Source: Saururus chinensis (Eukaryota > Streptophyta > Magnoliopsida > Piperales > Saururaceae). From it: a stretch of DNA of 64,000 nucleotides. Shown here in pieces: positions 1-58,199 of the stretch. Under the pieces are notes generated by a model that saw nothing but the letters and a program-made list of their open reading frames with translations, was not told where the DNA came from and searched no databases. The stretch covers positions 29,079,057 through 29,143,056 of the forward strand of contig CP141148.1 of the NCBI GenBank assembly GCA_035235625.1, read 5' to 3'. Numbering within the stretch: position 1 is the stretch's first letter; each line of letters starts with the position of its first letter. A program made the translations under genes and the position numbers.

Positions 1-3000
1 GCCTTCACATCAAACCAATCACACTTAAATAGTATAAATTTAAGGTTTGATGAGTACGTCAGCTCAATTATATCTGTTAATCTCCCATAATAGTTTATCT
101 CCCCTGTTATAGGCCTACTGTCCCTTGCACTTGCATAGCTTGTTGTCATTGTTGTAACGACAACACCACTATTTTGGGTTTTTGCTATCTTATCTTGTTC
201 AGCTGTCCGAAATCTGTATCCATTAATCGTGTATTTTTTAAACCTCCTAACAAGCGAATGCGAACCTTCAGCGAGCAAATGAAGATTGGCTGGCATTGAT
301 CTATTGCTTTCTCGCAACATTCGAACCTGTTTTTATCCAAATTAGGTTACTTATACACTAAATTTTTTTTATAAATAAATTATAGAAATATCAGTTGACC
401 TATCTTACATGTTCCTTAAACCAATCAACAAATTGCTCATTGTGAATTTTTTGGCGCACATGTTGTCGTACTCCTGGGTGAGTAAAATTTAGGAATTCAA
501 TGTGATGCCTGCATGCAATAGATGTTTATGACTGAGAAAACTAAAAAAAGATAGGTTAATAAATAATGTCTTTGTTATAACTTACTCTAAATAACTCGTC
601 GCCAATTCGTGGTTGAATAGGATATAGCGATGTGCTTGTGTCAATTCAATGTCACTCAATCTAAAATGTGTTGAACCTCTTAAGACACTATCATCTGGGT
701 TCCTTGGGGGTCGACTCAACCTTGTCTCAATATTGAATAAGTACCTTGAGCAAAACGTCATACATTCTTTTGCAATGTATCCTTCTGCAATAGATCCTTC
801 AGGTTGAGCCTTATTGTGTACGTATGATTTTAATATATGCAAGTACCTATACACAAACAATGTAAACTAGCAACACTTGAATTTTATATAATTGTAAATA
901 AATTTTAATTGAATACATTTTCATAACACCTTTCAATTGGATACATCCACCGGTATTGAATTGGCCCACCCAACAATGCTTCTGATGCAAGATGTATAGG
1001 CAAGTGTACCATTACGTCAAAGAATGATGGTGGAAAAATTCGCTCTATGTGGCAAAGAACTAATGCAATGCGCTCATCAAGTTGTTTTAACTCATCAATG
1101 ACAAGGACCTTGGAGCATAATTCCCGAAATAATGTGCTAAGTTCTATCAGAATACTCGTCACATTCTTGGGAAGAGTTTTTCTAATTGCCAATGGAAGAA
1201 ATTGTTGCATTATAACATGTGAATCATGACATTTTAGCCCATATATCTTACGCTCTTCAACATTAATGCACTTGGCAAGATTAGAAGAGTATCCATCCGG
1301 AGTCTTCATATATTTCAAAACCTGACAAAATATTTCTTTCTCTTTTTTCTCCATTGAATAGCATGCAGATGGTAAATAAACTCGGTTTGTACCTTCTTTC
1401 CACTTCGGATGCAACTCGTGCCTCACCCCCATTTCTACCAAGTCAAGGTGTGAATTTAAATTGTCCTTTGTTTTGCGTTCAATGTTCAACAAAGTTTTGA
1501 CAATATTATCGCATACATTTTTCTCGATGTGCATTACATCTAAATTATGTCTAAGTAAATTATTTTTCCAATATGGCAACTCAAAGAAAATGCTATTCTT
1601 CTTCCAATTAAACATTAAACCTTCATCCACACTCCTTGCCCTTTTCCTCCTTTTCTTCTTCCCAAAACTGTGATTGTTATTTTGTACCTCGCATAACACA
1701 TCCATCCCAGACAGTGGACTTGGAGCACCTCTAACCTCTACATTTCCATCGAAAGATTGTTTGTGTCTTCGGAATCTATGATTCAATGGTAAGAATCTTC
1801 GGTGACCCATATAACAATGTTTCCTCCCATTACTCAAGTATCGACTACATGTGTCTTTATGGAACAAAGGACATGCCATCTTACCTTTTGTACTCCAACC
1901 TGACAATATTGCATAACCTGGGAAGTCACTAATGATCCAAAGTAAGCCTGCATGCATTCGAAATGTTTCTTTCTTAGACGCATCATAGGTATTTACACCA
2001 AATTCCCATAACTCTTTTAGCTCATCAATCAAAGGTTGTAAGAATATGTCAATGTCATTTCCAGGGCCAAATGAACCAGGAATAATCAATGATAGGATCA
2101 TATTGGACTGCTTCATACACAACCATGGAGGTAAGTTATATGGCATAAGTATCACTAGCCATATGCTATGTGTAATACTCATTGTCCCAAATGGATTGAA
2201 GCCATCGCTTGCCAATCCAAGTCGAACATTGCGACACTCTACTGCAAAGGTTGGATTGGTCAAGTCAAGATGTTTCCAAACTTCAGAATCAGTTGGATGT
2301 TGTAATATATCATCTTTGTTACGACCCTCATCATGCCATCTCATATTAAATGCAATTTTCGATGACATATATAACCTTTGTAAACGAGGAATGAGAGGAA
2401 AGTGACGTAAAATCTTAGCTGGCGTCTTCTTTTTTTTAGATTCTGACCGTGTGTCTTCTTCTTTCCATCTTGAGGTGCCACATGTGTCACATGATTGTTT
2501 GTCGACATTGCCTTTATAATACAACATACAATCATTGGGACATGCATGAATTTTGTTGCAACTCAAACCTAAATCTGTTATGATTTTCTTACTTTGGTAA
2601 AGATTTTCTAGAAAGGTGGCATTAGGAAAAGTTTCTCTTAACAATACAAGCAACATATCAAAAGATTTGTTACTCCATCCACCAAGGATTTTGATATGCC
2701 ACATCTTAACAATGAAAGAAAGTATGGTTTGTGATTTGCAACCTGGGTACAACTCTTTCTCGGCATCTTGTACCAATGTGTTGAATTTAGCATTCACATT
2801 ATTTGTACCTTGAGGCAATCCATCATAAGCATCATCTTGAACTGGGCCTCCAAATACATCTTCCAACATAGTTCTCATCTCATCACTTGTATCATCAACT
2901 TCAAATTCATTGTTCAAAGTATCATTCTGTGATGAATTTGTCTGAAGGATATCTTCTCCATGAAAATACCACACTGTATAATTTTGTATAATACCATTGC

Positions 3001-3166
3001 ATATCAAATGCTCATATAGAATGTCTCTATCTTGATAATAGACATTACCACATTGAACGCAAGGACACTTGAACTTCCCATTGATAGGTGTTCCATGAGA
3101 TGCAACAAAATTGAGAAATCCTTCTACCCCCAAAGCATACTCATTAGAAACCCTACTTTTTCTCAT
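1..3166 (-). CDS. TNP2: TNP2-type CACTA transposase, four exons, C-terminus outside window
   Basis: Exons 3166-930, 846-586, 508-409 and 326-1 join with GT-AG borders; phases (2, 2, 0) agree and no stop interrupts at least 974 codons. Exon 1 has the N-terminal transposase-associated zinc domain (F-K-C-P-C-x2-C near residues 31-38), then the long TNP2 domain with family hallmarks LGLASDGFNPFG and ISDFPGYAILSGWSTKGKMACP, then the start of the DUF4218 region (FPPSFFDVMVHLPIHLASEA, RWMYPIER). Exon 2 continues it with YLHILKSYVHNKAQPEGSIAEGY. Exons 3-4 give a DUF4216-like tail (YYGRLTDIIEL, FKCDWFDV). The codons just before the chosen Met read D-K-S-W in frame, like the usual MDKSWM start, so the true start may lie in an upstream exon. 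The protein would bind the CACTA ends and cut and paste the element in the nucleus. The family is certain; the exact N-terminus is not. Confidence 0.9.
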
Positions 3167-6100
3167 CCAACTCTTATCTATGATAATATATACCAGATTT
3201 ACAGATCACACCTAAAAATATTGATAATATTATAATAACCTCTACAGTACAAAGAATGTATTTGTACAAAAGAAAATTATGTATGAACCCTTATAAACAA
3301 GAAAAACTAATAGTATCATATATCTACCTATGCATAGGCATATTACGAAAACCCTTGTTCATATAGGTTCTACACATATCCAAGTTTATCACATTTTAGT
3401 AAACAAATAATTATTGTAAATAAAAAATATATATTCAAGAAATTGGAGTCAAGTACCTTTTCTCTTTTCAGGAAGCTATAAAATGACCAATAGTTGCACG
3501 CCCTCCTCAATTAACCAAATTACTCTAAATATCTAAACAAGCAACAAACACCAAATAAGAAAATCTAGATTGAATATTATTTACTATGCAGATAAGTAAT
3601 GCAATGATGTACAACCATTAATTTTAGATATTCTACAAGAAAGGAAAAAAAAAAGCTCTCCCAATGGGAATTCAGATGAATTACAAAAAGAAAGATTCAT
3701 TTAATTTGTTTTATTCGACAAACAAGAGCAGAAAGATATGTTTATGCTGGGAGCAACAAGGATGAAAACCTCAAAATGCTCTGTAAAGGAAAGAACTTTA
3801 ACAACACTGGAATCTAAGATGTTTTTTCAAGCTAAACCTTTGGCACAATCTGATAATTAAGTGATTCCTTGTCCAGGTTATACATATACAAAATTAGTAG
3901 AATTGAAGCTTTGTTAATTTCAATTTTTCCTTATATTCAAGATGCTTATACTTCCCCTTGAATTTGCATGTCAAGAAAAAATACAAGAAAATAAGAGTAG
4001 TTTCAAAAATAGTAATTTAATTGGCGTATAATTCATTGTCCTTTTATGAAGATCTCTATAATAAGCATTTTCATTATATATTGGAAAAATCCACAAACAA
4101 ACAGAACTTGCATGCAAATTTGCACATTATGGTTAACACAAAAGCCAGTTGCTGTTTGCATAAGATACAAGAAATATTTTCCATTGACAGACCACCAGAC
4201 TCCTAATACTGTAATCATTATGAGGTTTAAACCATAGCTTTCACATTAAACATCTCCGGGAATATGAAAAGAAAACAATGAGTAAAAAAAGCTGAAATAT
4301 CTATATGAAGAAATATTGAGCCACTGATCTTGTATATTGTGGGATATTTTCAAGTATGAAAGTCAAATACTTCATAGCAGAAACAAGTCCTGTGCTTTTC
4401 TTTATACGGTAGACCAAAAACCCAGAGGAAAAGTCAAGCTGGAAACTCTTTGCCCAATTTTGATACTCACTACTAAAAAGTCTAAACAATGACTACAGTC
4501 AATACATTAATTGATCTTAAGTGTTTCAATGTTCATTCTGGCTTTTGGGAATCCAACTCTTTGGGCTTTGTTTTTTCAGCTGTCCTGGGAGGAGTTTAAA
4601 CCTCATGAACTTATTAGCTGACAGTGTGTTCCCAAAACAAGGACGAACCACCAGAACATCACAACCGGCAAAAAAAGGAAGAGACTAATCATGCCATGCA
4701 CCATAGCGTGCAAGGATCACTAGATGAGAGCATGATATAATCAAAGGACAGTTATAATAAATTAAAAAAAAATCAAGAAGTCTGGAAAAATCATGAGGGG
4801 GTCAGTAAATGAAGAATGCAGGTTTCCCATAGTCTGCAAATTAAATATTCCTGTTTTGTAGATGAATAAGGATGCAAGGTTTTGACCAACCAATCCGGCT
4901 TTTAAAGTCAGATATTGAGGCTTAAGAAACCATAATTCAACCACCAAAAAAAATATATTGGGATGTCCAATATGTCCATGAAACTGATGGAAGGAGAATG
5001 TTACATTTATACTTAAGAAATAGGAAAGAAACAAATACATCTTATCCAATCAAGTATCACAAAATAGGAAGAATTAACAGTGGTACCCACCAAATAATGG
5101 ATTTTACACCACCACTAAAGCCAAAGTTTGGTGTTTGTGTTCACAGACAAATAATTGCAAAAAACTGTAGTAAAAATTCTGTATGGAATTTAGGCTTAAA
5201 AAACTTGAAGGGGAAATATCTAAGGAAAAGGTTAAGATTTGGATCTAACTGGCATGCATATATAATAGGGGAGGCTCATATCTAAATAACTCATCCTTTT
5301 TGCTTTAAATTTCCATTATATGCAAGTTATATTTATCCTATTAATTGTGCTCTCTACTTGCTCTGCTTTCCCCTGCTCCACTACATTTCTCACAAGGGAA
5401 GAGTTGACCAGATGGAGCTCCTCCCCCTCGTCACCCCACCTAAAAAAGCACCTAGGAGGCTGCTCCAGCCATCTTCTCTGCCCATTGTATAATTCCTACA
5501 GCTCAGACCACCTTCTTGCTCCCACATCCATGATCTGGCAGCAATCCCTTCCTGTCCTTCTAACCTATAAAGTCAATCCCTTTTACCCCAATCCCTTCCT
5601 CACTTCCCTACCTCCCCAGTGGCTTGATCCTTTCCTCGGTCAGTCTGACCATGCCTATTACCACCCTGTCTCCCTAATCATGCATTGCCCTGGGGGCACG
5701 AGAGATAAGGGGTAGTGGCCATTACTATTGTATGGTGACCGGAACTTAATGGAGAGGCTAAAGGAAATCCTCCCAGAGGCCAGAGAAGCCACCTGACAAA
5801 CAAATGAAGGGTAGTTTTGTTTTTGGTTTATCATAAGGGTATACATTTAGAAGATTAGTTCATTTAATGAAAATTAATTTAAAATGGACAGGTAATTCAG
5901 ATATTTTCCCAAACTTAAACAAGTGAATTTTTAATATCCCAAATTTTCAACCTGCAATAGTTCAGGGGATGTAAAATTAGGAGTTGCATATTGTTCTATC
6001 ATACAAACAAACACTTCATCCATACTTAGCATAGATTCTGGCTTGGCCTAAAAAAAGGACTTTATAGTATTACATGCTCCGGTTGCCTTCAAAAAATTAT

Positions 6101-19038: not shown

Positions 19039-19199
19039 TTCTTTAATGAAGAGTGCTATTTGAACCCCTGATTTATCCCCGTATCCCCTATTATTTATAC
19101 ACCCCGAGTATAAACGTAAAAAGTGTTCAGTTACACCCCACAACTTCGAAATAGTGCAGTTAATATTTTTTAACCCTGTATACCCCGTCATTTTCACCC

Positions 19200-19485
19200 T
19201 CCAGCGGCAGCGGCGAGAAAACAGATCTTCGGCCTCTCCCGTCTCCCCAGTAGCGGCGCTTCGTCGTTCTACCGGAAAAATCTTTCAATCCGGGCCTAGA
19301 ATCTTCTTTCCCCTCCGCCGAAATAGCGCTTAATTCCCCTCTGCTGAAACAGCACCTTGTTTCCCTCCGCCGGAACAGCCTGTGTTTCGCCTTCGCTGGA
19401 AAAACGCATTTTTTGCCTCTGTCGGAACAGCGCCTCCTGCTCCACCTCCACCAACGACTCCAAAGCTGCCGCTACCATAGAAAAG
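19200..19485 (+). other. Probable 5' untranslated exon of the PMD gene
   Basis: A C/T-rich leader-like segment ends at the donor AAAAG|GTAAGG at 19485/19486. The next good acceptor, ACGCTAG, is at 20359 directly before the ATGATG of the PMD frame. This arrangement, a leader exon and a long first intron, is inferred from splice signals only. Confidence 0.4.
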
Positions 19486-20359
19486 GTAAGGTTTTTACAT
19501 TCTTTCTGAACGCGACGAGCTGAAGCTGTGGGGGGTACTCCTGTTTGGTTTCATCGGCGCCGCAATCACAACTTTTGCTATAATTTCAGTTTTCATTAGC
19601 CCTTTTACTTGTTCGTTGTTTTTTTTAAAAATGTCTAATTTCTTATTTTCTCACATCCTTTGAACTGCCCGTGAGGTGGGACACTTTTGGGCGTTTTGAT
19701 TTCCTTGTTGATCGCAATAGCGTATCTTTATTATTTTATTTTATTTTTATCCTTTATACATTTTCATCTATTCTTCTTGGTTGCCTAATTATTTCATTTT
19801 TCAAGCAGGACGAGTATCATATTTCAAAGGTTTTTTACGTTCCATGTTGTTGTTACTAATTTTTACCTCCCAATTCTATCACCTGTGTGGAAGTGCCTAT
19901 GAATTGGATTGTCAGCATTGGTTTTTTCTGTTCATTGGTTTCATTGTCTAACTGAGTCTTCATACCATGTAATGATGTCTCTGATATTTCTAAACTGATC
20001 GTTTTGATTGCAATAGTCCATGCTATGATCATATCTCCTTTGATGCTATTTGCAGAGGCTTTATGTAAGGGTAGTAGGTTCTTTATGTTTGTGTGGTTCT
20101 TATTGTTAACGAACTAACTTGGGCTGGAAGTTTTACCTTACATGTTTTTTGTGCGATGTTGTTTTTTATTATTAAACTTTGTACCATCTAGTGTTGTGGT
20201 CTTCATCTTCCATGATCATTCAAATTTTATCCATGTTCTGCAAGGATTCTATAATTCTGATAGCAGAGGTATTATGGGGTTTATGCATATATTGTTACTA
20301 ATTCAATGACTATTAAATAATGTTGAGGCTGATATTTGCTTTGATTCTCCGTACGCTAG

Positions 20360-22188
20360 ATGATGAGGACACACCCAACTGCATCAAATAGGCGGCGATG
20401 AGCTGAAACAAAAGATGGAGTGGCCGATGATGGCCTTGAAGCATATCCAGATGAAGTGGAGCGAAGACACGAAGTTCATGAAGAAACCACTGACGTTGAT
20501 CAAGAACAAGAAGGCAATGTAGGGGAGGATGAAGAAGGCCAGACAGTAGAGGATGAAACTTATCCTTTTCCTGGAGGACCGGTAGAAATGACAGTACTAA
20601 ATTGTTACCTGACTCATGTGTCGAAAGATATATGGAAAAGCAAGGTAAGTTGATTTACTTTTAAAAACCTTTAATAAATGCTTTCATTATACACAATTTT
20701 TTAACATAGTATATACTACTTTTGTATAGGACCGTGGACCTCTCCGATGTGTTCATCACCATAAGAAGCTTGCCGATTGGGATATCCATGATAGTCGAAT
20801 AACGCAATTGATAGAGGCTAGTGGCTTGTATCCATTGACGTATGTATCCTACAAGACTATTAATAGGATGTGGATCTCTTCGTTGGTTGAAAGGTGGTAC
20901 CCGGAAACGAATACCTTTCACATGCCATTTGGAGAGATGACTATCACCTTGGATGATGTCCAACAACTGATAGGGATTCCGGTGAGAGGACATGCTGTGG
21001 TGACCCCTGACTTTAATAGTGGTGAGTTGGTCGATTTATGTGTTAACGCCACAAAGAAGAAATTGAAGACCAATTGAGCAAATGCAAAGGGAAGGGCTTG
21101 ACATTGAATTGGTTGCGGGATATATTTCGACAACTGCCAGAGGATGCTACCCAGGAAGATATTGATTGTGCCGCTCATGCTTATATTCTATATTTGCTAG
21201 GGTGTACAATCATGTGCGACAAATCAGGAACGAAAGTTCCGGCAAAGTACTTAAATTTACTTATGAATGTGGATAGCATCAGCAAGTATGCATGGGGAGC
21301 AGCTGCCCTTGCATTTTTATATCATCAATTGGGCATTGCATCAAGAACAGAAGCGCGGCAAATCAGTGGTTATCTCACATTGTTAGAGGTATGATGACAG
21401 TTGTTTAGGTATTTGTTATTTATTATTGTGTCACATATTGCTTAGAGATATAATAATTATTTTTCTTATATTGTAGGCATGGTCATATGAACATATAAAA
21501 ATTGAGAGATCAGTCCCCAATGTGTTGTATGAAAAGGGGCAGCCACGAGCCTTACTCTGGAAGGGCAATATATCACAGCCAATAAATCCTGCTCATAAGC
21601 TTATTAAATTCAGGGAAGCGCTTGATCATTTAGATGCACGAGAGGTATAATATGTTAATTTTACATTTTCATTGGTTGCAATTATAACAATTCTCTAGTA
21701 AGATTATAACGTCCATGTGTATTGCCTCATAGGTCATATGGGATCCATACAGAGAAGAAAGGGCGCATTATCCACAAGCTGGTAATTCATTGTACTCAGG
21801 GTTTCTTTTTTGTTTTCAAATTAGGGAACCTCATAATCCTGCAAGGGTACTAAGACAGTTTGGATTTATCCAAACAATCCCTCCACCACCACCACAACCA
21901 ATACACAAAGGATCTAGCAGGGGTGCACACGCGAAGGGGTACAAGCTTGTGTATGATGCGAACATAAACATTTGGAAGAAGAACAATAGACATACATTGC
22001 CTTCCAAAGAATGCGGAAACTTATGTAGAAATTCATGGGATTGTGCACCTGATTACATTCAGTGGTTTAAATTAGTGTCACACCCCTTGGTGCAAAATCC
22101 AGATGGCCAAGTTTATGCATTGGACTACACAGGCTCACAGAAAAATGAAGAAGAATGGGTAATTTTGTTAGTATTATTGATGGATACT

Positions 22189-22238
<50 letters not shown>

Positions 22239-22456
22239 TGTTTTCCATTATGCAGCTTGTCCACAAAAAAAAAACAATTGCCTTGTTACAAGATTCGTTG
22301 ACGGCTCTTCAAGACAATGAAGGGAAGAGAAAAGTAAGCTTAGCACTTGAAGAGCTTCTTTACGATGAACCTACTCCAAGTGACACAGGAAAAAGAATGG
22401 CAACTCGAACTAAGACTAGAGTAGTAAAAGGAAAGAGAAATGGGGTTTCTAAATAG
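20360..22456 (+). pseudogene. Plant mobile domain (PMD/MAIN-like) gene carried by the MULE, five exons
   Basis: Exons 20360-20644, 20730-21388, 21477-21644, 21733-22158 and 22256-22456 have GT-AG borders, all in phase 0 if one base is restored in exon 2 (659 instead of 660 nt). The product would be about 579 residues. Family features: LIEASGLYPLTYVSYKTINR, WYPETNTFHMPFGEMTITLD followed by DVQQLIGIPVRG, LTLNWLRDIF, YILYLLGCTI, AWGAAALAFLYHQL, a tryptophan-rich W-D-P-Y block, and a lysine-rich tail. PMD proteins occur both in host silencing factors (MAIN, MAIL1) and in transposons. Damage: an in-frame TGA at codon 14 (20399-20401, from an R codon in the repeat RRR) and one frameshift near 21055. 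A TA microsatellite fills intron 4. The function inside the element is unknown; it is not a transposase by sequence. Confidence 0.85.
22196..22235. repeat. (TA)n microsatellite in a PMD intron
   Basis: About 40 bp of alternating TA immediately upstream of the last PMD exon. Confidence 0.95.
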
Positions 22457-23603
22457 CCTCAGATAGAACCGGGAGTCCATATCTGTTGGTTTTATAAGTG
22501 CAATCCATGACAAACACATGATGGAACAAATTTGCAAGCCGAACCGATAATGGATGAGCAAAAAATATAGATGTTATTGTGTCTGTGTCCTCATCCTTCT
22601 TATAATAGCAAACATACCCTGATTCCTCTATCCGTTTCATCAACTCTTGTAGCACAGTTCTGCCCTCTCTTTGAGTTAAAGACAAGCAACTACGGACATT
22701 GTAAATTGTTTTCATAGTTGTACAATTTGTATGGTCTGCTTCCTTCAAAGATAACAAAATTTGTTGAGGTTTCAACCGTACCTTTGACAAATTCTTCACA
22801 ATTTCTATCTCTCCTTCTTTAAGACGACCAACATATGCATGCCCTTCTCCAAATTGCCCTGGGGGGTGATTGTGACTACCACAAATTACTTTTAATTTCC
22901 ACCAAACAACATTGTCAATATACATTTCCCTTGCTTGTAACTTGAATGGGCATCCACATTTCTTTGTGGTTGTTTGTCTATTATGAATATTCGACTTGGG
23001 CTTTTGAATAATACTTCTTTTGTAGTAACCTGCCCTTTCACAAACTAAAGTAACACGTGGTTTCCGCTTTTGGGCATCCGATTTTAGGATAATAAGCATT
23101 GTACCATGCCTCATAGAAATTTCTTTGGCCCATTTTATTAAAGCGTCTCGTGATGGGAACACCTGCAAGTTGATCAACATATATTATTCTTGACATTTCT
23201 TCAATTAATATGACATATTGTCACAACATTCATGATTTTACCTTATCATCAGAAAATGCAAAAGATATATCTATATTTAAGATGTCGCCTTCGCTTTGGC
23301 CTTCTCTTTCATATGCATCCTGTTAACAAAGAGTTGCATGATAAGATTTTCATTTCACAACATTAGAAAATACCATAATTCTTTGTGTTGCCTTATATTT
23401 TTCTTTTTAGATAGAAAAATGGTCTATACCTCTTTCGAAGACTGGTTTTCTACCTCACCATATGTTTCATTCGCCTCTATTTGTTTCAATGAACATGGAA
23501 CAATCTCGTCTATTTCCTCGTTTGAAGCAATACACCCACTATTCTTGATAATATATGACATCAAATACATAAAAGACGAAGATTCACCAGCAAGATGCTC
23601 CAT
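22449..23603 (-). CDS. MULE transposase, N-terminal half only, three exons
   Basis: Exons 23603-23430, 23319-23242 and 23162-22449 join in phase 0 to 321 residues, starting MEHLAGESSS. Residues from VFPSRDALIKWAKEI onward form a FAR1/MuDR-type zinc DNA-binding region (LVCERAGYYK.., CGCPFKLQAR, ICGSHNHPPG). Next comes a helical stretch, KVRLKPQQILLSLKE, and the start of the MULE catalytic domain, HHVFVMDCTYKTNRYGLPVL. The protein stops right there, so only the first of the DDE acidic residues is present; the rest of the nuclease and the SWIM finger are gone. Its stop codon overlaps the end of the convergent PMD gene by 8 bp, as if a deletion had joined the two tails. It might still bind the element ends and could act as a repressor, but that is inference. 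Confidence 0.85.
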
Positions 23604-24384
23604 TCTTGATTGACTTAATCAATAAGCTATAGTCACCTATAATAACACAAATTAAGAGTAATGAAATTCTAGGACGATCATAAACAAACAATACTTGGCA
23701 AGAACTAACAAAAATTTTTATCTCATCAATATACATTATTGTACTTATAAGTGGGTTATCCCCATGTAGATATAATCACATTGTTGCATGGTTTACCCTC
23801 CGCAAGTATACTAATTTAAGCTTCACAAGTATACTATTTAAAGTTTTTACTTAGTTAATATGTGGCAGGGGGTGGTCCCCGTGAAGTGAAGAACAATGTG
23901 GCAGGGGCTAACAAAAGGTTGCATCTGTAAACGTTCTGGCGGAAAAAAAATCTGAAAAACTTGTATATGGAAGTGTAAAGACGGTCTCTGGAAGTGTAAA
24001 AACGCCATTAATGAACAAAGGAAGAAAACTTACAAAAAGGGTAGGTCGCCGGAGCTTTTCTACCCACCACCGGAGTTTTTAAATCATTGCCGGAGCTAAG
24101 GTATATGCTGATGGCAATAATACTCTCTGATCGCCGGCGGCTACAGTGCTTGCCGGCGGCCTTGAGGAAGAGGAGAGTAAAAAATCTCTTTCATTAGGTT
24201 AACTTATTAAGTAAAAACGTGGGGGGAAAAAGAGTAAGTCCTGAAAAGGTAGATGGGGTATAAATGAGTAAGTTAGGGAGGGGGAAAGCGGGGTATAAAA
24301 GTAATAAAATATTCAGACTTTTCACTTTCATTTGGGGGATAGTGGGAAAAAACAGGGGTCTATATAGCCGCATTCTTCTTTAAT

Positions 24385-26040: not shown

Positions 26041-26063
26041 TCTTCGTTTTCTAGAGTATAGAG

Positions 26064-28155
26064 ATGATGGCTGCTCATTTTGATGTGCCCTCGTCAAACC
26101 ACTCATCACCGGACTGGAATTGCCTGAGCCCCATCCAAGGCTTGATTGAAGATGAACCAACATTTGATTTACTTCCAGAGCCCCCATCTCCACAAACAGT
26201 ATCTCGGGAGGATTCCCTTCATTCCAACAATTGGGTCCATGTCCTGCTTAGCTATGGAGGTGAATTTGCTTGCATGTCCGGCAAGTGTTTATATAGGGGT
26301 GGCAAAACAAAGCTTATGCGGATTGGCGAGGCCATTACTTACTCTCAGCTTCTGGTGAAGGTGACTGAGATTTCTTCATTGCCTGCAAGTATGGTGGAGA
26401 TGAGATATAGGTATCCTAGTTTGGAAATGGAAGCTCCTCTCATTGTTGTTGAAGATGACAATGATATAAAAGAAATGATGCATGTGTTCCTTCCACTCTC
26501 TGGTCAACCTCCAGTTCAGCTCTTTGTATTTGCTGTAACAGAGACTACAATCACAACTGCAGCTCCCAGGTTTGGTGTCTGATAGTATCCATGAAGATTT
26601 CTATATTCTTTGATGCATAATTTTTTTTTCTATATTCTGACCAATCAATTTTAGTCATCATCAAGACAAGTTGTTTTGGTTGACAGGAAAATCATTTGTA
26701 CGAAAGAAAAGCTTAGAACTTAATAATACTTAATCAAGAAATTAACTACGATGCAACTGTGGTCAATAATGGGTGTCTTGGAAATCAAAGTAAAATACTG
26801 TTGTAGCATTATTGGTTGATTTAATCAACCATGAAAAGTCCTTGGCTCCCAGCTGATTGTTTTGTTAGTAAGAGACCAAATTGGTTATCCTTGTCAGCAT
26901 GGAAATTGGACAGAGTCCGCCTAATAGTGGTTTGTCCAAGTTCCTATTAGAATTTATATGGACAAAAAATTATTGTTTGTGATGAACCGTCCAATGGATG
27001 TGTCCAACAATTTCTCCTGTATATATACATAATATTACTAATTATATTGAGATAAGAAAATTTCAAAAGGTACTAGAAAATTTAAGGTTTCTCACAAACA
27101 ACAATTGACATCAAATGACTTAGTTAAGTGGTAAGAACTAATGAACATTCAACGTTTAGTGCCTTGTATTTATATAAAAAAAAAAAGGTTTAGTGCCTTA
27201 AGCAATTATAGTGAAGGTCATAGTATAATGTTTGAATGTTATGGCATTGGATCACACACGGATACTGTTACGATCTTGTCTGAGTCCATGTTTGAGCAAG
27301 TTGGACAGGACTCATTTAGCTACACAAGAATTTGTTGAACATGGTGTCCATTTCCACCCCCTTACATGGTTATGAAAATCTGGTTTTTGTGCAGATTTTA
27401 GGGTTTCTAGTTTCCATCTGGTAGTTAGGAGCTACATTTAACTTTGATTATTATGTCTACCACTACTCTAATATGTAAATGACCTTTTTTCCATTTTGCC
27501 TATTCTATAATTGTACCTCAGCAACTATGTGAAGGAAACTGACAAGGGATTAAACACTGAATTAACAGAGGAAGGCATAAGAGACCCACAGCTAAAGGAG
27601 AGCAGAAACTTTACCAGATCTCATAATATGCGAAATGATCTTACTGGGATGGACCTCAATGTTCCTCATGAAGAAAACGGCAATGAACTACTGGATAACA
27701 GCTTTGGCTTAGAAGTTGGACAAGAGTTTTCTGATATAAAGAGTATCAAGAATGCTCTAAGGGAGCATGCCATGCGTTTTGGTTTCCAGTTCAAGTCCAT
27801 CAGGACTGATCCGAGGCGGTTCACAGCAAAATGTGCTGATGAAGGTTGTGCATGGCGTATACATGCCTCTAATAAGGGAGATGACCAATCTTCATTAATT
27901 AAAATCAAATCTTTGCAGGCATTCCACACATGTAGGAGAATGCCAAGAAGTTCTGGGCATCGACAAGCGACAAGAAGATGGATTGCGGACTGCATAAAAA
28001 CTCGGTTGGCGAAAGATAGAAGATATTCACCTAAACAAATTGTTGAAGAGATGAGAATAGAACATGGTATTAGTGTGAGTTACACTAAAGCATGGAGGGG
28101 CAGAGAGCTGGCTTTGAAGTTGATACAACGTGAAGAATCTGGTATGGATGTTTAG
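26064..28155 (+). CDS. PB1 plus MuDR domain protein, MUSTANG-like, C-terminally truncated
   Basis: Exon 1 (26064-26569) ends CCCAG|GTTTGG and exon 2 (27522-28155) follows CTCAG; joined they give 379 residues. Residues about 57-157 form a PB1 domain (WVHVLLSYGGEF.., KCLYRGGKTKLMRI, PLIVVEDDNDIKEM). Exon 2 carries the MuDR DNA-binding domain (FSDIKSIKNALREHAMRFGF, then a C-x4-C.. zinc pattern AKCADEGCAW and FHTC) and GISVSYTKAWRGRELALKLI, which in full proteins leads into the MULE catalytic domain. PB1 followed by MuDR is the layout of the domesticated MUSTANG-B family. Here the frame ends with GMDV; shifted by one base it would read ELALENIQKRQQQTDKRKSA before a stop, so the catalytic and SWIM parts are absent either way. 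No TIRs or target duplications were seen around it. It is either a short host gene or a truncated duplicate. Confidence 0.75.
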
Positions 28156-37700: not shown

Positions 37701-40700
37701 AAGTGAAAGCTCCGTGCTTCTCCGACTTGCAACGTATTGAGAAAAAGATCTTTGGGTAAGAGGAGGTTATGACTATTACTTACGGGCGAAGGAAGTGTGA
37801 AGTGTCTCTATGTATGAGGAGATTCTGCTCGTCGCCTATGGGTGCGGGAAGTGTGAAGTGATTCTAGACAAGGGAAAGTTCTGTGTGCCACCTATTGACG
37901 TAGGAAGTGTCTCTGGGTAAGGAGAAGTTCTATCTATCATCCACGGACAATATGAGAGGGAAGTGTCTCCGGGTAAGGGGAAGTCATGTCTGCCACCTAT
38001 GGGCATGGGAAGTGGGAAGTGTCTCTAGGTAAGGGGAGTTTTCATCCGTCGTCCATAGACACAATGAGAGGGAAGTGTCTCTAGGTAAGGGGTGATGAGA
38101 GGGAAGTGTCTCTAGGTAAGGGGAAGTTCTATTTTTTGTCTATGGACACGATGAGAGGGAAGTGTCTCAAGGTATAGGGAAGTTCTGTCTACCGCCTACA
38201 TGTGCAAAAAGTGAGAAGCATCTCCGGGTAAGGTTATGTTCGCCACTTTTGGAGCATGCAAAGAAAAATACATCTCCAGGTAAGGGGAGGTTTTGTTTGA
38301 AACCTTTGGGCATAAAGAGTGAGAAGAGCCTTGGAAAGGGGAGTGTCTTTCTATCTCCTTTCGGCGGAATGAGAGAAACATTCTGGAGTAAGAAGAGGTT
38401 CCGTCCACTGTCTCTAGATCTAAAGGGGAGAACACCTTAAAGGAATGCACAACTTCACATGTCGCTATTTCTGAAGAACTTTGGGGAGTGAGTGTAAGGA
38501 CCCTCATCTTTAAACCGGTTTTGGTTTTCTTTAATTATTGATTATCGTGAGATTTACGTGTTTTCTGATCTTATTCGGTGATTTTGTAAATAAATAGAGT
38601 TTGTGATGGTTTTAACCAAAATTAACTTCAATATTAGTGGTTTTAAGTGATTTTAAACCAAATGTGAATTTTTGGAATTTTTCGGATTTTTCACTATTTT
38701 CCTAAAAATTAGGGTTTTGGCGGGACCCCTGTGGGCCCCACGGTCGAAAATTTTATTTTTATGTCAAATGAACCTAGACATATACTTAAGGTCACACAAA
38801 AATTTTCAGAATTTTATTAGGCTTAATTCGTGCTTAAATTTGCAAAATAACCACTTTTAGCCTACTTTTCATATTTACACCCCAAAACTTACCTATGCCT
38901 ACCCCAACCCTTACTATAAAAGGGCAAACCAGAGCCATTTCCATTTTTGGGAATAGGCTAAGGAAGGAGGTCTGGCCTAATCCCCACTTAGGCCCGAATT
39001 AGAAGCCGATTAAGGTAAGCTTGCTCTAATTAAGCACTAATCCTTGGCTTTTCTCTTAATTTCTTCCAAATCTACCATTTTCCCCTTGATTCAATTCGTT
39101 TTTGACCATCAAAAGCTACTGATTTGTGTTTTACTATAAACCCTAACATTCAAAATTTGATTTTTACTACCAATAAGCCCTAGATCTAAGGTTTAATTAG
39201 GGATTTCTTAAGTAAATCGATTTCTATTGGTGTTTGATTCAAACTCATTGTGTTTTCAAGGATTTCAAAAAGGGTGACTCTTCAATCCGAGCTTAATCAA
39301 GTGCTGAGGTAATGGGTCTTCAAAATCTCTATTTATCCATGGTAAAACTCTTCATTTTTGGCTTATTTCGAAATGGTTTGCTTGATTTAGTGTGTTAATG
39401 GTAAGATTAGAAAATGGAATTATTTAATCCCGATTTCTTAGGGTTTTGCATTATTATGGTTTGGTTTGATATTCTGGAAGTCAAGGAGGACTTTTGATGA
39501 TGTTTAGGGTGTTAGATGTGGATTTGAAGTGTATTCTATGGTGTTTCGGTTTGGATTTGCGAAAGGAAGAAGATGACTGTTCTGCCGTGTTGGCGATCGA
39601 TCGGCCTTGCAGGGCGATCGATCGGCTGAACTGAAATTTTTAAAATTTTGCGTGTAACCGATCGAACGGCCTGAAGGGCGATCGATCGGCTACACAAAAA
39701 ACTATATGTTGTGTGTATGATGCTTATTTTGATGATTCCACTTTAACATGCCAATTTTATATGAATGTGGAGTGTTTTAAGCTATGTTAGGCTACTGGAA
39801 ATGCATGCTATTGAGTTTATAGAGTTGAGACATATGCTTAGAGATGGTAGGATGACTTATGTTTTGTGGCATGATCTTGGAATCGTTATCTTGAAATTAT
39901 GAACGGTTGGTTCCCTTTGGATAAGCATATATTTTCAGTAGGACTACAATCATTGTTGGACTGATTTGTCATGATAAATTGTGATTAATGGTGTGTGAAT
40001 GTTGGTGATTGCCATGACTCAATGATGAAATGAGTGATGTTATAGATGTTTAGCCTTTGTGGTTGAGTTTTGCATTTAACTATGATTTCAACGATTCTTC
40101 TACCATGATTTCCGCTAGAATTCATGTTTAGGTAGAAATTCACATGTGTAGTGTGGTAGTGAGTTGATTTTTCAAGCATTGGATGCAATGGGATGGAATT
40201 GTGTGCCGGGTTTATCAGTCGTGGATTAATCGCAAGTTGATTGGTCCGAAAGGACATATTTTGATTTGAAGTTCCTGTGTGGAACGATTTGAAGTTCCTG
40301 TGTGGAATGATTTGAAGTTCCTGTGTGGAACGAGTGCACTCCCCGGGTTGAGTCTTTTTAATGGAATGATGTGGGGACGAGTTGTGTACTTGTCTTGCGG
40401 ACACGTGAGAATATTTTTATGTGTGTCATCTGGACCCTGAGAATCCAGTGTGGTATGCCGTGTGCACCCCGCTACCACGTGTTCTAGGGTTCTCTGTGTG
40501 AGAACTCGGGCTCTTCCCTCCGCAGGAGATGTCCCTGGGCGAACACCCCTGCTCTAGATTCTCTGTGTGAGAATGGGACATCCTTGGCCAGGATCGTCCA
40601 GGGCGAGCAGTATTAGGGATTGACAACCCCGATCTTTCTTGAATTCTTGTGTAGAATTTTGTACCATGACACACCTTCGTGGCCTTGTCTATGCTCCCGT

Positions 40701-43258
40701 CTGTGTGACATTAATGTGTGATTACTCCTTGATGGAGGTTGATTGTGATGATGCTATGCATGTGGATTATGTATGTTAGAGATACATCCATGCATGTTGA
40801 TGTTGATGTTATGCATGTGGAATATGTATGTTAGAGATACATCCATGCATGTTGATGTTGATGTTATGCATGTGGAATATGTATGTTAGAGATACATCCA
40901 TGCATGTTGATTTTGATGTTATGCATGTGGAATATGTATGTTAGAGATACATCCATGCGGGATTGGTTATGATGTGAATGCAGGTGGGAATATGTATGCT
41001 AGAGATACATCCATGCAGGTTGAATTATGCATTTTGATGCAGTGTTAAGTGATATGAATGTGTGATCAGAAAGTGATGCACCATGTAAATCTTTGATCTG
41101 AAACGATCTCATTTCTAAGCTATCGTATTTTCTATGTTGACAGTGATATTAAAACCATTGCTGAGTGTTAAAACTCACCCCTCTTTTGTGTTTTGATTTG
41201 GGGCTGCGTGGTGCGACACGCAGACGGACAGGATTGCCTTTTTGAGGAAAGGTCAGAGGTAGCTTGGGTGTGATGATGGAGATCGTTGCGTGACTTTCCT
41301 TCATTTTGTTTCATGTTTTATGTTAGAACCTATGTGTAGGGTTCTTTGTTGTGGATTTATGTCACATGTTACAGTTATGTTTGCTTATGACTTATTTTGA
41401 GCCGGTGTGGGCTTTACTTAAACTAAGCTTGTGGGTTTGAGATTGTTGTTTACTTTGTGTTAAGCAACACCTTTTCTTTCCCTTTTATTTACTCTTGCTC
41501 AAAGGATTGTGCGCACTCCGTGTTGCTGTTAATCGCCCGTGGTTAGGGATTAAGTCTTCCGCTAGAATCGTTTCTCAATTTCACTTCGTCGCCCCCGCGC
41601 GCTTGACCGGCCCTTGGACCGGGTTCGGCTCGGGTCGGGCATGACCGGGGCGTGACAGTGAGCGTTTCTGACTGTCCTATTTAATAAGTAATTATATGCT
41701 TGTCTATGCATCTTAAGTAGTTAACTTAAGATATTAATTAAGTTATATGTCTTGCTATAATCCAATGTATTCTTATAAGCTCTGATGTGCTTTATTTTAA
41801 TATGATATACTTTAATATGATCTCATATGATCTAATATGGTCGGAATACATTTAATATGATATGATGTATTTTGATATGATCCAATCTGCTCTGATGTAT
41901 TTGGCTTCGCTCTATAATAAAAGGAGATGCATAATTTCGCTGATTTGTTAGTTTTTGTTTAACTCCAATGATTTATAATATTTCTATCTGAGTTTGAATA
42001 ATTTATTTGGATATAAAGATATCGTATTTTAATGTTTATGATATTGTCTAATTCATATATTAGCTGTTGAGCAAAACTACGTTTAGATCTTATTGTATTA
42101 GAATAATATCGTAGATGTTATCTAATACGTACGAAAGTAACCAAAGGTATATTAACTTTAACTTAATTTAAATTAAAATAAAATATAATTTTATTGTGGC
42201 CTATGCACAATTAAGTGCTTAAGTTTCATAATATGTAGAGAAAAATTACAGCTCTTGTACTTGAGACTCTGCCACTCTTAGTTTATTAATTTTACGTTTT
42301 AAACGCAAATTTTGGGTTTTCAGAGCCTCCGCTCTCGAAAGATTCCGGACTGGGGTGTTACATTATATGTGGGTTGGGTCACGGTTTTCTAGACCCAATT
42401 TGATAAGATTTTCATAACTAAATCGCCAGACCCAAAAAACTAATATGAGGGCGGTCGGATCAAGTTCAACTGGCTGGGCCCGATTTTTAAACACGTGGAG
42501 GAATCCACGAATTACAGAGAAGTTCACCTACGACAGAGTGCATTCATTTCCGTGAACTCTCATCCTACCCTTCTTTGCGTATTCCTATTCAAAAGATGTT
42601 TGCTTTCAAATCTATTCTAAATTACGCTGGGATCAGGTCGACAATCACCCAGAATGAGTGAAATTCCCTCTGTCACATATTAATGGCTCATCTAGAATGT
42701 AAATGACCTTAAAGCAACATAATGCATAGTTTGTGAAAAAAAAAAACGAAATGCATAAACGGAATTTTATTGAGAGCCACGAACATGCAAAGACTCAACA
42801 CTGAACACAAACACAGGTTAGAACTAAGCATTAATGGAATTTAATCCAAAGTAATTTCTGTTCCAATTAATCAGGAAAGTGAAGAGGGTAGCATGACAGG
42901 TGGAGCTGCAGCAGATGTAGAAGCACCAAGACGTGCTGGTGCTCAAGTTAATCTTCTCAAGACTGGATACAAAATTGGAATACGGGCATTGAAGTTAGTT
43001 TTTGTACTACTCGCAGCTCTGCTTTCTGCGTCGTGGGACACCCTAACCAAAACAAAACTGGACAAGAATCTGATGGCCCTCTTGCTTTCAACCATCTGCC
43101 TGTTGTTTCTGCTGGGCTCAACCCTGGCTCTGGTACGCATCATCTCTCCGAACATGCAGAAACAGATAATCCTCAAACTTCTTATTACTGCAACCTTCCT
43201 ATCCGCAGCATTTGTTGTGGGACTAGTCGTTGCAATTTGCTACCGCAGGATCTGTTAG
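34724..43258 (+). CDS. Small host protein with three membrane spans, three exons
   Basis: Exons 34724-34774, 35660-35803 and 42875-43258 have GT-AG borders, all in phase 0, giving 192 residues: MEVTPRDSQQNMDTRNK, a polar second exon (PDKCNGEAEVKAQS..SSIEK), then ESEEGSMTGGAAADVEAPRR. The first 90 residues are charged and look disordered. They are followed by three hydrophobic helices: IRALKLVFVLLAALLSA, LMALLLSTICLLFLLGSTLA and LLITATFLSAAFVVGLVVAI, ending CYRRIC. There is no signal peptide, so a polytopic membrane protein with a soluble N-terminus is likely. I do not recognise the family. Intron 1 (885 bp) holds a Mutator-type MITE, and intron 2 (7071 bp) holds nested LTRs. The internal Met at 42893 is an alternative start if the first exons are wrong, but three matching phases favour the spliced form. 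The frame is undamaged. Confidence 0.7.
35106..35573. mobile_element. Mutator-type MITE, 468 bp, in intron 1 of the host gene
   Basis: Terminal inverted repeats of about 100 bp: GGACGCGAATCTGCTGGGGA.. at the left pairs with GGACATGAATTTGTAGAGGA.. inward from the right, then GGTTTTTTCGCT.AGCACC, ATTGGCCACCAATGAGTAGC and TTCCACGTCACAAGGACCA. A perfect 9-bp duplication, cattagcta, flanks it (35097-35105 and 35574-35582). It has no coding capacity. Length, long TIRs and the 9-bp duplication fit a non-autonomous Mutator-like element. Confidence 0.88.
37530..38480 (+). repeat. Degenerate minisatellite, units about 55-65 bp
   Basis: Repeats of GGGAAGTGTCTCTAGGTAAG, GGGAAGTTCTGTCT..., CGCCTATGGGCATG-like text occur about 14 times with much variation, inside the outer LTR. 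Confidence 0.75.
38493..41657 (+). mobile_element. Solo LTR, 3165 bp, family shared with 49908-53255
   Basis: It starts TGTAAGGACCCTCATC and ends CATGACCGGGGCGTGACA, with a perfect 5-bp duplication gtgag at 38488-38492 and 41658-41662. A TATAAAAGG box at 38915-38923 suggests plus orientation. No internal domains exist, so it is a solo LTR of a long-LTR family, probably Ty3/gypsy. Internal features are a group of GGCGATCGATCGGC palindromes (about 39.59-39.70 kb) and a 57-60-bp tandem repeat at 40760-41030. It is nested in the older LTR at 36738-42362. Confidence 0.92.
40760..41030 (+). repeat. Tandem repeat of about 57 bp in the solo LTR
   Basis: About five copies of GGAATATGTATGTTAGAGAT, ACATCCATGCATGTTGATGT and TGATGTTATGCATGT. 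The inverted solo LTR carries the same array at about 50.55-50.82 kb. Confidence 0.85.
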
Positions 43259-49719: not shown

Positions 49720-52700
49720 CAGCCTTATCGACATCTCGATGACCATAAGTAAACTCATTGATATGTCGAACCCTGCCGACATTGACTTTGAGGTCCATCA
49801 GTAACTTCATGGACAGGTCGATGACCCCGCTAATAACCATTAGTTAGATCATCGATACATTGAACCTTACTGATGGAATCTTTTGGTGATCTTATGGATA
49901 GGTCGGTTGTCACGCCCCGGCGATGCCTGACCCGAGCCGAACCCGGTCCAAGGGCCGGTCAAACGCGCGGGGGCGACGAAGTGAAAATTGAGAAATGATC
50001 TAGCGAAAGACTTAATCCCTAACCACGGGCGATTAACAGAAACACGGAGTGCGCACAATCCTTTGAGAAAGAGTAAATAAAAGGGAAGGAAAAGGTGTTG
50101 CTTATCGCAAAGTAAACAACAATCTCAAACCCACGAGCTTAGTTAAGTAAAGCCCACACCGGCTCAAAATAAGTCATAAGCATCACAACTGCAAAATATG
50201 ACATAAATCCAAACAAGAACCCTACACAAAGGTTCGAACATAAAGTATGAAACAAACACAGGTAAGTCACGCAACGATCTCCATCATCACACCCAAGCTA
50301 CCTCTGACCTTTCCTCAAAGAGGCAATCCTATCCGTCTGCGTGTCGCACCACACAGCCCCAAATCAAAACACAAAAGAGGGGTGAGTTTTAACACTCAGC
50401 AATGGTTTTAATATCACTATCAACGTAGAAAATACGATAGCTTAGCAATGAGATCGTTCAGATCAAAGATTTACATGGTGCATCACTTTCTGATCACACA
50501 TTCAGATCACCTAACACTGCATCATAATGCATAATATCATCACAACCTGCATGGATGTATCTCTAACATACATATTCCCACATGCATTCACATTATAACC
50601 AATCCCGCATGGATGTATTTCTAACATACATATTCCACATGCATAACATCAAAATCAACATGCATGGATGTATCTCTAACATACATATTCCACATGCATA
50701 ACATCAACACCAACAAGCATGGATGTATCTCTAACATATATATTCCACATGCATAATATCAAAATCAGCATGCATGGATGTATCTCTAACATACATATTC
50801 CCACATGCATTATATCATCATAAACAACCTCCATCAAGGAGTAATCACACACTAATGTCACACAGACGGGAGCATAGACAAGGCCACGAAGGCGTGTCAT
50901 GATCCAAAATTCTACACAAGAATTAAAGAAAGATCGGGTTGTCAATCCCTAATACTGCTCGCCCTGGACGATCCTGGCCAAGGATGTCCCATTCTCACAC
51001 AGAGAATGTAGAGCAGGGGTGTTCGCCCAGGGACATCTCTTGCGGAGGGAAGAGCCCGAGTTCTCACACAGAGAACCCTAGAACACATGGTAGCAGGGTG
51101 CACACGGCATACCACACTGGATTCTCAGGGTCCATATGACACACATGATAACATTCTCACAATCCGCAAGACAAGTACACAACTCGTCCCCACATCATTC
51201 CATTTAATTAGACTCAACCCGGGGAGTGCACTCGTTCCACACAGGAACTTCAAATCAAAATATGTCCTTTCGGACCAATCAATTTGTGATTAATCCACGA
51301 CCGATAAACCCGGCACACAATTCCATCACATTGCATCCAATCGGTCAAATTCGATTAATCACGATGAAGCCTCAATTGGAAATCTATTTTCTATGATGCA
51401 TACAACATGGTACATACGTGGGCAAAGCATACATGAATCCTAATCCATGATAAGTGCTCTCATCAGCCCCTAATGCATCATTCATAACCACAATATTAAG
51501 CTTCAACATCATCATTTAACCCCACATGTGTGTGTATCTAGTAGAAGCATTCCACATAATGCATGCCATCATGCTTGAAATTAAACTCACTACCACACTA
51601 CACATGTGAATTTCCATCTAAACATGAATTCCAGAGGAAATCATAGAAGAAAAATCGTTGAAATCATAGCTAGATTCAAAACTCAACCACAAAGGCTAAA
51701 CACATATAACATCACTCATTTCATCATTGAGTCATGGCATTCACCAACATTCACACACCATTAACCACAATCTATCATGACAAGTCAGTCCAATAATGAT
51801 TGTAGTCCTACTGAAAATATGCTTAACCAAAGGGAAACAACCATTCATAATTTTAAGATAACGATTCCAATATCATACCACAAAGCATAAGTCATTCTAC
51901 CATCTCTAAGCATATATCTCAACTCTATAAACTCAATAGCATGCATTTCCAGTAGCCTAACATAGCTTAAAACACTCCACATTCATATAAAATTGGCAAG
52001 CTCAAGTGAAATCATCAAAATAGACATCATATGCACAACATACAATTTCCTGTGTAGCCGATCGATCGCCATTCAGGCCGTTCGATCGGTTACACGCAAA
52101 AATTTGAAATTTACAGTTCAGCCGATCGATCGCCTTGCAAGGCCGATCGATCGCCAACACGGCAGAACAGTCATCTTCTTCCTTTCGCAAATCCAAACCG
52201 AAACACCATAGATAACACTTCAAATCCACATCTAACACCCTAATCATCATCAAAAGTCCTCCATGACTTCCAGAACATCAAACCAAACCATAATAATGCA
52301 AAACCCTAAGAAATTAGGATTAAATAATTCCATTTTCTAATCTTACCATTAACACACTAAATCAAGCAAACCATTTCGAAATAAGCCAAAAATGGAGAGT
52401 TTTACCATGGATAAACAGAGATTTCAAAGACCCATTACCTCAGTACTTGATTAAGCTCGGATTGAAGAGCCACCCTTCTTGAAACCCTTGAAAACACAAT
52501 GAGTTTGAATTAAACTCTAATAGAAATCGATTTACCCAAGAAATCCCTAATTAAATCTTAGATCTAGGGCTTGTTGGTAGTAAAAATCGAATTTTGAATG
52601 TTAGGGTTTGTAGTAAAACATAAATCGGTAGCTTTTGATAGTCAAAAACGAATTGAATCAAGGGGAAAATGGTAGATTTGGAAGAAATAAAGAGAAAAGA

Positions 52701-53480
52701 CAAGGATTAGTGCTTAATTAAAGTAAGCTTACCTTAATCGGCTTCTAATTCGGGCCTAAGTGGGGATTAGGCCAGCCCTCCTTCTTTAGCCTATTCCCAA
52801 AAATGGAAATGGCTCTGGTTTGCCCTTTTATAGTAAGGGTTGGGGTATGCATAGGTAAGTTTTGGGGTGTAAATATGAAAAGTAGGCTAAAAGTGGGTAT
52901 TTTGCAAATTTAAACACTGATTAAGCCTAATAAAATTCTAAAAAATTTTATATGACCTTAAGTATATGTCTAGGTTTATTTGACACAAAAATAAAATTTT
53001 CGACGGTGGGGCCCACAGGGGTCCCGCCAAAACCTTAATTTTTGGGAAAATAGTAAAAATTCCGAAAAATCTCAAAAATTCACATTTGGTTTAAAATCAC
53101 TTAAAACCACTAATGTTGAAGTTAATTTTGGTTTAAACCATCACAAACTCTATTTATTTTATAAAATCACCGAATAAGATCAGAAAACGCGTTAATCTCA
53201 CGATAACCCATAATTAAAGAAAACCAAAACCGGTTTAAAGATGATGGTCCTTACATCGGTACCCTCACTGATAACTATCGATGAATTCACCGACGTGTCG
53301 ACTACTACTGAAAGAGATGCTAATCTCCATAATTGACTTTAATAACAAATTGGTGCCTTCACTAATAACCATCAGTGAGATCATATCATTGACAAAGATA
53401 TAAATCTCTATTGGTGACTTTGTAGACTGGTAGATGCTTCACCACTATCGGTGAGATAACCGACATATCAAACCATACTA
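49720..53480. repeat. Degenerate minisatellite interrupted by a solo LTR
   Basis: On both sides of the solo LTR (49.72-49.91 and 53.26-53.48 kb) occur repeated phrases of the type CATCGATATGTCGAACC, CTGA(T/C)AACCATCAGTGA and GACTTTG. The solo LTR inserted in this short array; the target duplication tcggt is part of it. Confidence 0.5.
49908..53255 (-). mobile_element. Solo LTR, 3348 bp, inverted relative of 38493-41657
   Basis: The plus-strand ends are TGTCACGCCCCGGCGATG and GATGGTCCTTACA, the reverse complement of the 38493-41657 family, with a perfect 5-bp duplication tcggt at 49903-49907 and 53256-53260. The TATAAAAGG box reads on the minus strand near 52830. It shares the internal 57-bp array, the GATCGATC palindrome group (52.06-52.16 kb) and most of its length with the other copy. 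No internal domains are present. Confidence 0.92.
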
Positions 53481-57856: not shown

Positions 57857-58163
57857 TGTTGTGCACGACTGTACACGATGCTCAGACTCCTTTTGATTAC
57901 TTTACTGCTTTGATTAGTTAGTTGAACAGTAGCCTTTTACTTATTGGTTCACTTTGGGTTTAGATTAAACTGTATGAACCGGGCAGGTTGGGTTGGTTCA
58001 ACTGGTCCGGTTCACTAGGAGGGTCGTCTCCCATAAGGGGCGGCCTGAACTCTTGTTTTGATTATGCAATTGGTAATTCAGACTTCTCCCCTTTCTTCTA
58101 CAATTCTCCCCTTTCCCTGCACAATCCTCCTTGATATCGATCGTGCCTGCATCGGGCACATCA
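57857..58163 (+). repeat. 5' LTR of the chromovirus
   Basis: 307 bp, TGTTGTGCACGACTG to CATCGGGCACATCA, followed directly by the primer site. Confidence 0.95.
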
Positions 58164-58164
58164 T

Positions 58165-58176
58165 TGGTATCGGAGC
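58165..58176 (+). other. Primer-binding site, tRNA-Met type
   Basis: TGGTATCGGAGC, one base from the usual plant initiator-Met site TGGTATCAGAGC, one base after the 5' LTR. Confidence 0.85.
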
Positions 58177-58199
58177 CTGTGCGATCCTTGACCATGGCG

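Follow-up and report, generated by a model that had tools for sequence, protein, structure and literature searches.

The window analysed here, a stretch of 64,000 nucleotides from Saururus chinensis (contig CP141148.1; positions are counted from its first letter), contains at 19048..24375 a Mutator-like element (MULE) that carries a plant mobile domain (PMD) gene and, convergent to it, a truncated transposase gene. We could confirm that the element is real, with borders matching those of the first-pass annotation, a reading of the letters without database searches, which had defined it by a 9-bp duplication. In fact, the target-site duplication (TSD) of 9 bp falls within the 8-11 bp expected of a MULE, and the terminal inverted repeats (TIRs) agree at 30 of 42 positions. 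Among 5413 exact 9-mer pairs of the window with a spacing of 1-10 kb (9-mers at >60 places excluded), the pair at 19039/24376 gave the best inner TIR score, 40, the next being 37. Furthermore, end repeats of at least 8 bp occur in 16 of the 21 family sequences in which both ends are recognisable, the window copy counted in (slight shifts of the ends were permitted, and five of 26 sequences, with an end missing or weak, were excluded); the ungapped TIR match of these 16 ranges from 13 to 34 of 42, with the lowest values in L020 and L019. It follows that the 9-bp match is not fortuitous, a chance origin being ruled out by the top TIR score together with these repeats. A search of the genome, a 516-Mb assembly of 11 contigs that contains the window, for the empty site (11 + 13 flank bases joined over one TSD copy, up to three mismatches) gave 0 matches and was uninformative.

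The PMD gene, as modelled from the sequence alone, consists of five coding exons with GT/AG intron ends on the + strand, and the PMD family (PF10536) is recognised in three open + strand stretches with 74.5, 80.0 and 38.4 bits (cut-off 34.9). A search of solved structures with the PMD protein returned only weak, unrelated matches (best E 0.019). In the window copy the gene is dead, as a TGA interrupts codon 14 and a 10-bp deletion shifts the frame of exon 2; at the site of the deletion, 10 extra bases are present in 18 of the 21 other copies read and seven in L030, and L022 and L026 do not span it. The exon structure given by the first-pass annotation is thus retained, but these two lesions exclude an intact PMD gene.

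The transposase, likewise modelled (three exons), lies convergent to the PMD gene with overlapping stops, as had been described: its frame stops at 22449, directly behind MDCTYKTNRYGLPVL, and shares 8 bp with the PMD gene, whose stop lies at 22454-22456. Among its AFT, FAR1-like and RNaseH-like Pfam matches, AFT alone exceeds the cut-off. Over the window and longer copies, AFT scores 26.6 and 29.4 bits (cut-off 21.6) and FAR1 stays below its cut-off of 28.1 at 22.0 and 21.2 bits; the ZSWIM1-3 RNaseH-like match of the window copy, which keeps only the start of the domain, reaches 19.7 bits (cut-off 27.2). The MULE domain (PF10551) was found with 82 bits (cut-off 27.6) in the longer copy L014. 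No DBD_Tnp_Mut or SWIM match was obtained with Pfam for the family transposase in the window and longer copies; DBD_Tnp_Mut was scored by another frame in the same window. These features would place the family among FAR1/AFT-type MULEs, a placement made by Pfam matches alone. The positions of the catalytic D, D and E are putative.

The first-pass annotation had further proposed that a deletion removed the catalytic half of the transposase, and the longer relatives with the same TIRs, which keep the PMD gene and a longer transposase, bear this out. In the whole-element search, 40 of 499 candidates were scored, and the copy counts are accordingly lower bounds. In the longer copies read, the left 3.4 kb and the right 1.9 kb of the window element are separated by about 1.2 to 5.7 kb of extra sequence. 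Several copies of 8.3-8.8 kb keep the two ends and the bulk of each gene (L010, 8665 bp; L015, 8717; L019, 8561; L027, 8309; L030, 8788), and others are shortened or bear insertions. The longer members consist of the PMD gene, a tandem-repeat spacer and a longer, degenerate transposase, tail to tail; the spacer of L010 contains tandem repeats of 129 bp and 138 bp (3872-4331 and 4395-5078). We could also notice, at the C terminus of the L010 transposase (5182-5781, - strand), a D-G-H-C...H pattern, which we take, as a lead only, to resemble that of OTU proteases; this C terminus gave no Pfam match, and its best deubiquitinase match, VCPIP1 (E 0.32), came after an unrelated chain (E 0.23).

The two flanks of the deletion can be recognised in L009, where ...CTCAGATTGA stands on the left and ...TATGGATAGAACC on the right, the window reading ...CTCAGATAGAACC, with GAT (22462-22464) common to all. 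A 37-base pattern across the junction, with up to three mismatches allowed, matched the genome once, at the window itself, and in the tree of PMD coding sequences the window copy clusters with the longer copies L009 and L011_12 (support 0.76). Thus, the window copy is the product of one internal deletion with a 3-bp microhomology, which also removed the spacer and the PMD 3' flank. The 8-bp overlap is a by-product of it, because the truncated frame continues into PMD 3'-end sequence in antisense; a functional overlap is ruled out by the chance nature of the stop and by the single occurrence of the junction. The suggestion that both 3' ends stayed usable fails: the PMD frame is broken twice, the spacer and the PMD 3' flank are lost, and the transposase stop is accidental. 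The element in the window is a dead, non-autonomous deletion derivative of an ordinary kind. The features are collected in Table 1.

Table 1. Features of the MULE in the window (positions within the 64,000 nucleotides)
Feature	Position	Strand	Basis or remark
TSD, left copy	19039..19047		TTCTTTAAT, identical to 24376..24384
Left TIR, 42 bp	19048..19089	+	30/42 positions match the right end; end recurs in family copies
PMD coding exon 1	20360..20644	+	GT 5' splice site; AG ahead of start
Premature TGA, PMD codon 14	20399..20401	+	translation
PMD coding exon 2 (PMD domain), frameshifted here	20730..21388	+	PF10536 in two frames
Private 10-bp deletion, PMD exon 2	21049..21053 (near 21051)	+	frame shifted; comparison with 21 other copies
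PMD coding exon 3	21477..21644	+	gene model
PMD coding exon 4	21733..22158	+	PF10536 positions 239-347; gene model
PMD coding exon 5 with stop TAG	22256..22456	+	stop at 22454-22456; gene model
Transposase exon 3, truncated	22449..23162	-	AFT, FAR1, ZSWIM1-3 RNaseH-like matches; derived from the transposase as far as 22462; beyond it, a chance stop is reached in antisense PMD 3'-end sequence
Deletion junction, 3-bp microhomology GAT	22462..22464		both flanks in longer copies; junction once in genome
Transposase exon 2	23242..23319	-	gene model
Transposase exon 1	23430..23603	-	gene model
Right TIR, 42 bp	24334..24375	-	imperfect match to left end; end recurs in family copies
TSD, right copy	24376..24384		TTCTTTAAT, identical to 19039..19047

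Taken together, the window very probably holds an internally deleted, dead and non-autonomous copy of a two-gene MULE family that pairs a PMD with a FAR1/AFT-type transposase. A full member of this family would be bounded by TIRs and mostly 9-bp TSDs, with the PMD gene (five coding exons) directed inwards from the left end, the transposase (FAR1/AFT type, three modelled exons) directed inwards from the right, and the two tail to tail over the tandem-repeat spacer; a single deletion at the 3-bp microhomology would then have taken out the spacer together with the remainder of the transposase and left the accidental 8-bp overlap.

Relatives without the PMD, which the first-pass annotation had taken as a possible argument against a family role of that gene, do exist, but they are derivatives of another kind. 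Four copies of about 4.9-5.0 kb (L031-L034) have in common with the window element its right arm, with a right end nearly identical to it, and the first half of the transposase; their left arm, common to the four, is a different one. Three of the four are flanked by 9-bp TSDs, of which one is of low complexity, and the PMD half of the element gave no DNA match in any of them. Being derivatives with only half of the transposase and a left arm of their own, these copies do not refute the PMD as a component of the family. They look non-autonomous, and their having moved without the PMD half indicates that the PMD is not required in cis for the movement of derivatives. The left arm had been suspected to be a captured host gene, but the three pieces of it that were tried gave no Pfam match.

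The association of the two genes was analysed over the genome. With PMD exon 2 as the query, 153 matches were obtained (150 of 1684 candidates scored; not all matches are listed), and eight second pieces of already listed loci were dropped from the pairing count. The listed rows include 87 PMDs of the window type (53-100% identity) and 55 more distant ones (41-48%). The search with the MULE domain of the transposase gave 150 rows (150 of 884 candidates scored), all of which were used for pairing. A convergent transposase lies within 15 kb at 62 of the 87 listed window-type loci, down to 56% identity (at two of the 62 there is also a second transposase in another orientation), and random placement of 87 loci, repeated 500 times, yielded 0.19 convergent partners on average and never more than 2. 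By bands of PMD identity, from at least 90% down to 50-60%, the paired fractions are 20/23, 16/22, 13/17, 7/14 and 6/11. The identities of paired PMD and transposase correlate (Spearman 0.87, n=62), with the limit that the paired rows share descent, so that the p-value is not independent evidence. The 55 listed distant PMDs include two with a convergent partner, one with a partner in another orientation and 52 with none. On the transposase side, 45 of 106 rows of at least 50% identity (from 123 of the 150 rows) have no PMD partner among the listed rows; some of these loci hold a partial PMD absent from the list, e.g., L022. The PMD appears to be a long-standing second gene of this MULE lineage, in a position like that of mudrB.

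Furthermore, the coding sequences themselves carry a record of selection. The PMD counts are drawn from 19 of 22 sequences (L022, L025 and L026, mostly missing, were excluded) and the transposase counts from 18 of 26 sequences with >60% coverage, the window not included; sites with more than two letters were excluded from both. In the PMD, the ratio of nonsynonymous plus stop to synonymous differences is 93:63 for those shared by at least two copies vs 217:53 for private ones (Fisher p=5e-6), and the contrast is found again in exons 2-4 (55:47 vs 159:40, p=4e-6). Relative to the neutral ratio of 2.92, obtained from the private mutation spectrum, private differences lie slightly above (p=0.03) and shared ones below (p=5e-5). 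For the transposase, with a neutral ratio of 3.23, shared and private differences both lie slightly below it (p=0.04 and p=0.03). Ten chosen pairs of PMD copies gave dN/dS values of 0.26-0.70, and exon 2 of four deeply diverged loci compared with L010 gave 0.086, 0.074, 0.157 and 0.110 (NG86; 0.115 and 0.094 by YN00 for the first two). The transposase domain gave 0.151, 0.192 and 0.182 (L014 and two loci). The comparison shows that the PMD is under purifying selection in the samples compared, and its dN/dS, lower than that of the transposase domain, indicates that the PMD is the more strongly constrained of the two in the few loci compared.

Several observations weigh against the picture of a working two-gene element. 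The PMD part is disabled at least once in all 21 other copies read (three of them partial there), and a stop or frameshift indel with respect to the reference frame is present in all 18 transposases covered by >60%. No copy with both PMD and transposase intact, as an autonomous element would have them, was found among the copies read, so that any recent activity would be hypothetical. As regards selection, no significant shared/private contrast emerges from exon 1 alone (p=0.33) or from exon 5 alone (p=1.0), stops make up eight of the shared PMD differences, and the contrast is absent from the transposase of young copies (91:42 vs 292:115, p=0.51). Moreover, dS in the deep comparisons is saturated (1.5-3.0) and the four deep loci were chosen for their open frames, and two closer PMD pairs gave about 0.4 by NG86 and 0.55-0.67 by YN00. 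Of the listed window-type PMD loci, 25 of 87 have no partner within 15 kb. Finally, the link between PMD and silencing in this element is putative. As for the decay itself, G to A and C to T transitions account for more than half of the private PMD changes (151 of 270), which would be expected for the decay of methylated repeats.

Published work, of which the cited sources were available to us in part, offers several systems for comparison. PMD-C domains fused to MULE transposases were described in grasses and Amborella, with a suggested anti-silencing use (Ikeda 2017, PMC5418596), genic PMD-C was reported to predominate in eudicots (Nicolau 2020, PMC7156037), and the counter-silencing idea was restated in a 2021 review (PMC8616336); in tea plant, 175 phased-siRNA loci were located at PMD genes (PMC10673657). 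The idea of the first-pass annotation that a transposon with a PMD may counter or borrow host control had thus been put forward before (PMC5418596). Dupeyron 2019 (PMC6446971) placed an antisense PMD in MUDR group 50, MUDRAVI2 49, MDR 48, monocots 47 and Solanaceae_1 42, and a PMD in half of the VANDAL group; the part of that source available to us gives none for the FAR1-bearing plant groups 35 and 36. The available part of PMC2528002 contains nothing on PMD.

The window family resembles the PMD groups of Dupeyron 2019 in its TIRs, 9-bp TSD and PMD antisense to the transposase, and differs from them in its AFT/FAR1-type N terminus and the lack of a DBD_Tnp_Mut or SWIM match (PMC6446971). A FAR1-like N terminus and a MULE domain would bring it close to Jittery/Hop and the FAR1-type MULEs of group 36, as far as Pfam matches alone can place it; different from it, group 36 is given no PMD in the available part of that source (PMC6446971). 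With the PMD-C MULEs, for which counter-silencing was proposed, it shares a MULE-borne PMD, which there is fused to the transposase and here is separate and convergent, with its own start and introns (PMC5418596). As in maize MuDR, two convergent genes lie between TIRs, the second being here a PMD; the likeness drawn is one of layout (PMC3440606). VANDAL elements likewise combine a MULE with an extra gene and non-coding tandem repeats (PMC10398659, PMC13317346), although VANC is a demonstrated anti-silencing protein and the role of the PMD is putative (PMC10398659). The pairing of a PMD with a FAR1/AFT-type transposase, grouped by Pfam alone, was not found in the available parts of the literature searched; the MULE layout and the presence of a PMD are already known there, and the transposase partner is the variant. 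FAR1-type MULEs would thus be a further carrier of PMD beside the MuDR-type groups.

There is good evidence that the PMD has been a working second gene of the lineage, and we infer that its protein performs a function for the mobile element. It is possible to hypothesize, tentatively, that the PMD keeps the chromatin or transcripts of the element active, e.g., by interfering with or replacing host PMDs of the MAIN/MAIL type. In a bolder form, which we hold to be rather unlikely, the PMD of this FAR1-type MULE would be a dedicated silencing-override factor directed against the host MAIN/MAIL pathway and more strongly constrained than the transposase, and its target site might be the tandem-repeat spacer, as in VANC systems.

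Our next choice after the hypothesis of an active chromatin state, and a doubtful one, is that the PMD acts like mudrB, as a factor of the transposition reaction or of reintegration and not of silencing escape. The layout recalls MuDR, with its two convergently transcribed genes, mudrA and mudrB (PMC3440606), the latter apparently required for integration (PMC6446971); against this, host PMD proteins have been linked to silencing and gene expression (PMC5418596, PMC7156037).

Whether a transposon-borne PMD is useful to its carrier or mere cargo is treated as a matter of speculation in two published accounts (PMC5418596, PMC8616336). We consider it improbable that the PMD is a passenger, captured from the host in the manner of a Pack-MULE and useless to the element. 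Such cargo would agree with the disabled state of every PMD copy read, that of the window included, with the movement of L031-L034 without the PMD half and with the host fragments that MULEs often carry (PMC6446971). However, it accounts poorly for convergent pairing at matched divergence in 62 of the 87 listed loci, for dN/dS values of 0.07-0.16 across subfamilies, for the shared vs private contrast in young PMD copies and for coding introns that coincide in position, by eye, with those of a further PMD-carrying lineage in this genome. In this one genome, the pairing has been kept over deep divergence, with the PMD the more constrained gene in the few loci compared, which makes the idea of a useful PMD directly testable. 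Least probable is a functional compact element, or a short transposase acting as a repressor, with a selected overlap: the front half does retain the region that binds DNA, and its frame is open as far as the stop, but that stop is read from antisense PMD sequence, the PMD gene is broken twice, and the junction occurs once in the genome, with no copies sharing it at different TSDs, so that the compact form did not multiply.

The other PMD-carrying lineage just mentioned is an abundant, distant one, represented by L036 (G000:C5:5936300-5941300), in which a SWIM-bearing frame is followed by a PMD gene in the same orientation. Its PMD is 39% identical to the window-type PMD in exon 2, and the SWIM zinc finger, over the cut-off, is accompanied by a weak zinc knuckle, the MULE domain being outside the piece read or absent; SWIM finger and knuckle are features of MURA-type transposases. 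Four coding introns of L036 lie, by eye, at the positions of those of the window gene, and L036 has one extra, which points to a shared descent of the two PMDs from an intron-bearing PMD gene. The L036 group may be the younger lineage, since exon-2 frames are open in many of its loci. At a first look, the genome offered 2740 PMD candidates, of which 117 were scored.

Elsewhere in the window, 57857-63175 is occupied by a Ty3/gypsy long terminal repeat (LTR) retrotransposon with gag, protease, reverse transcriptase and integrase matches and 307-bp direct repeats that are 99.3% alike; it looks young. At 908-3205 there is a CACTA-type transposase frame of 766 aa without a stop (Transposase_21, DUF4218, Transpos_assoc). 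Beginning 1.7 kb to the right of the element, two frames, one with a PB1 domain and one with a MuDR DNA-binding domain (26055-28152), may represent a domesticated MUSTANG-type gene. Finally, 38493-41657 and 49908-53255 form a large inverted duplication, 91-94% identical.

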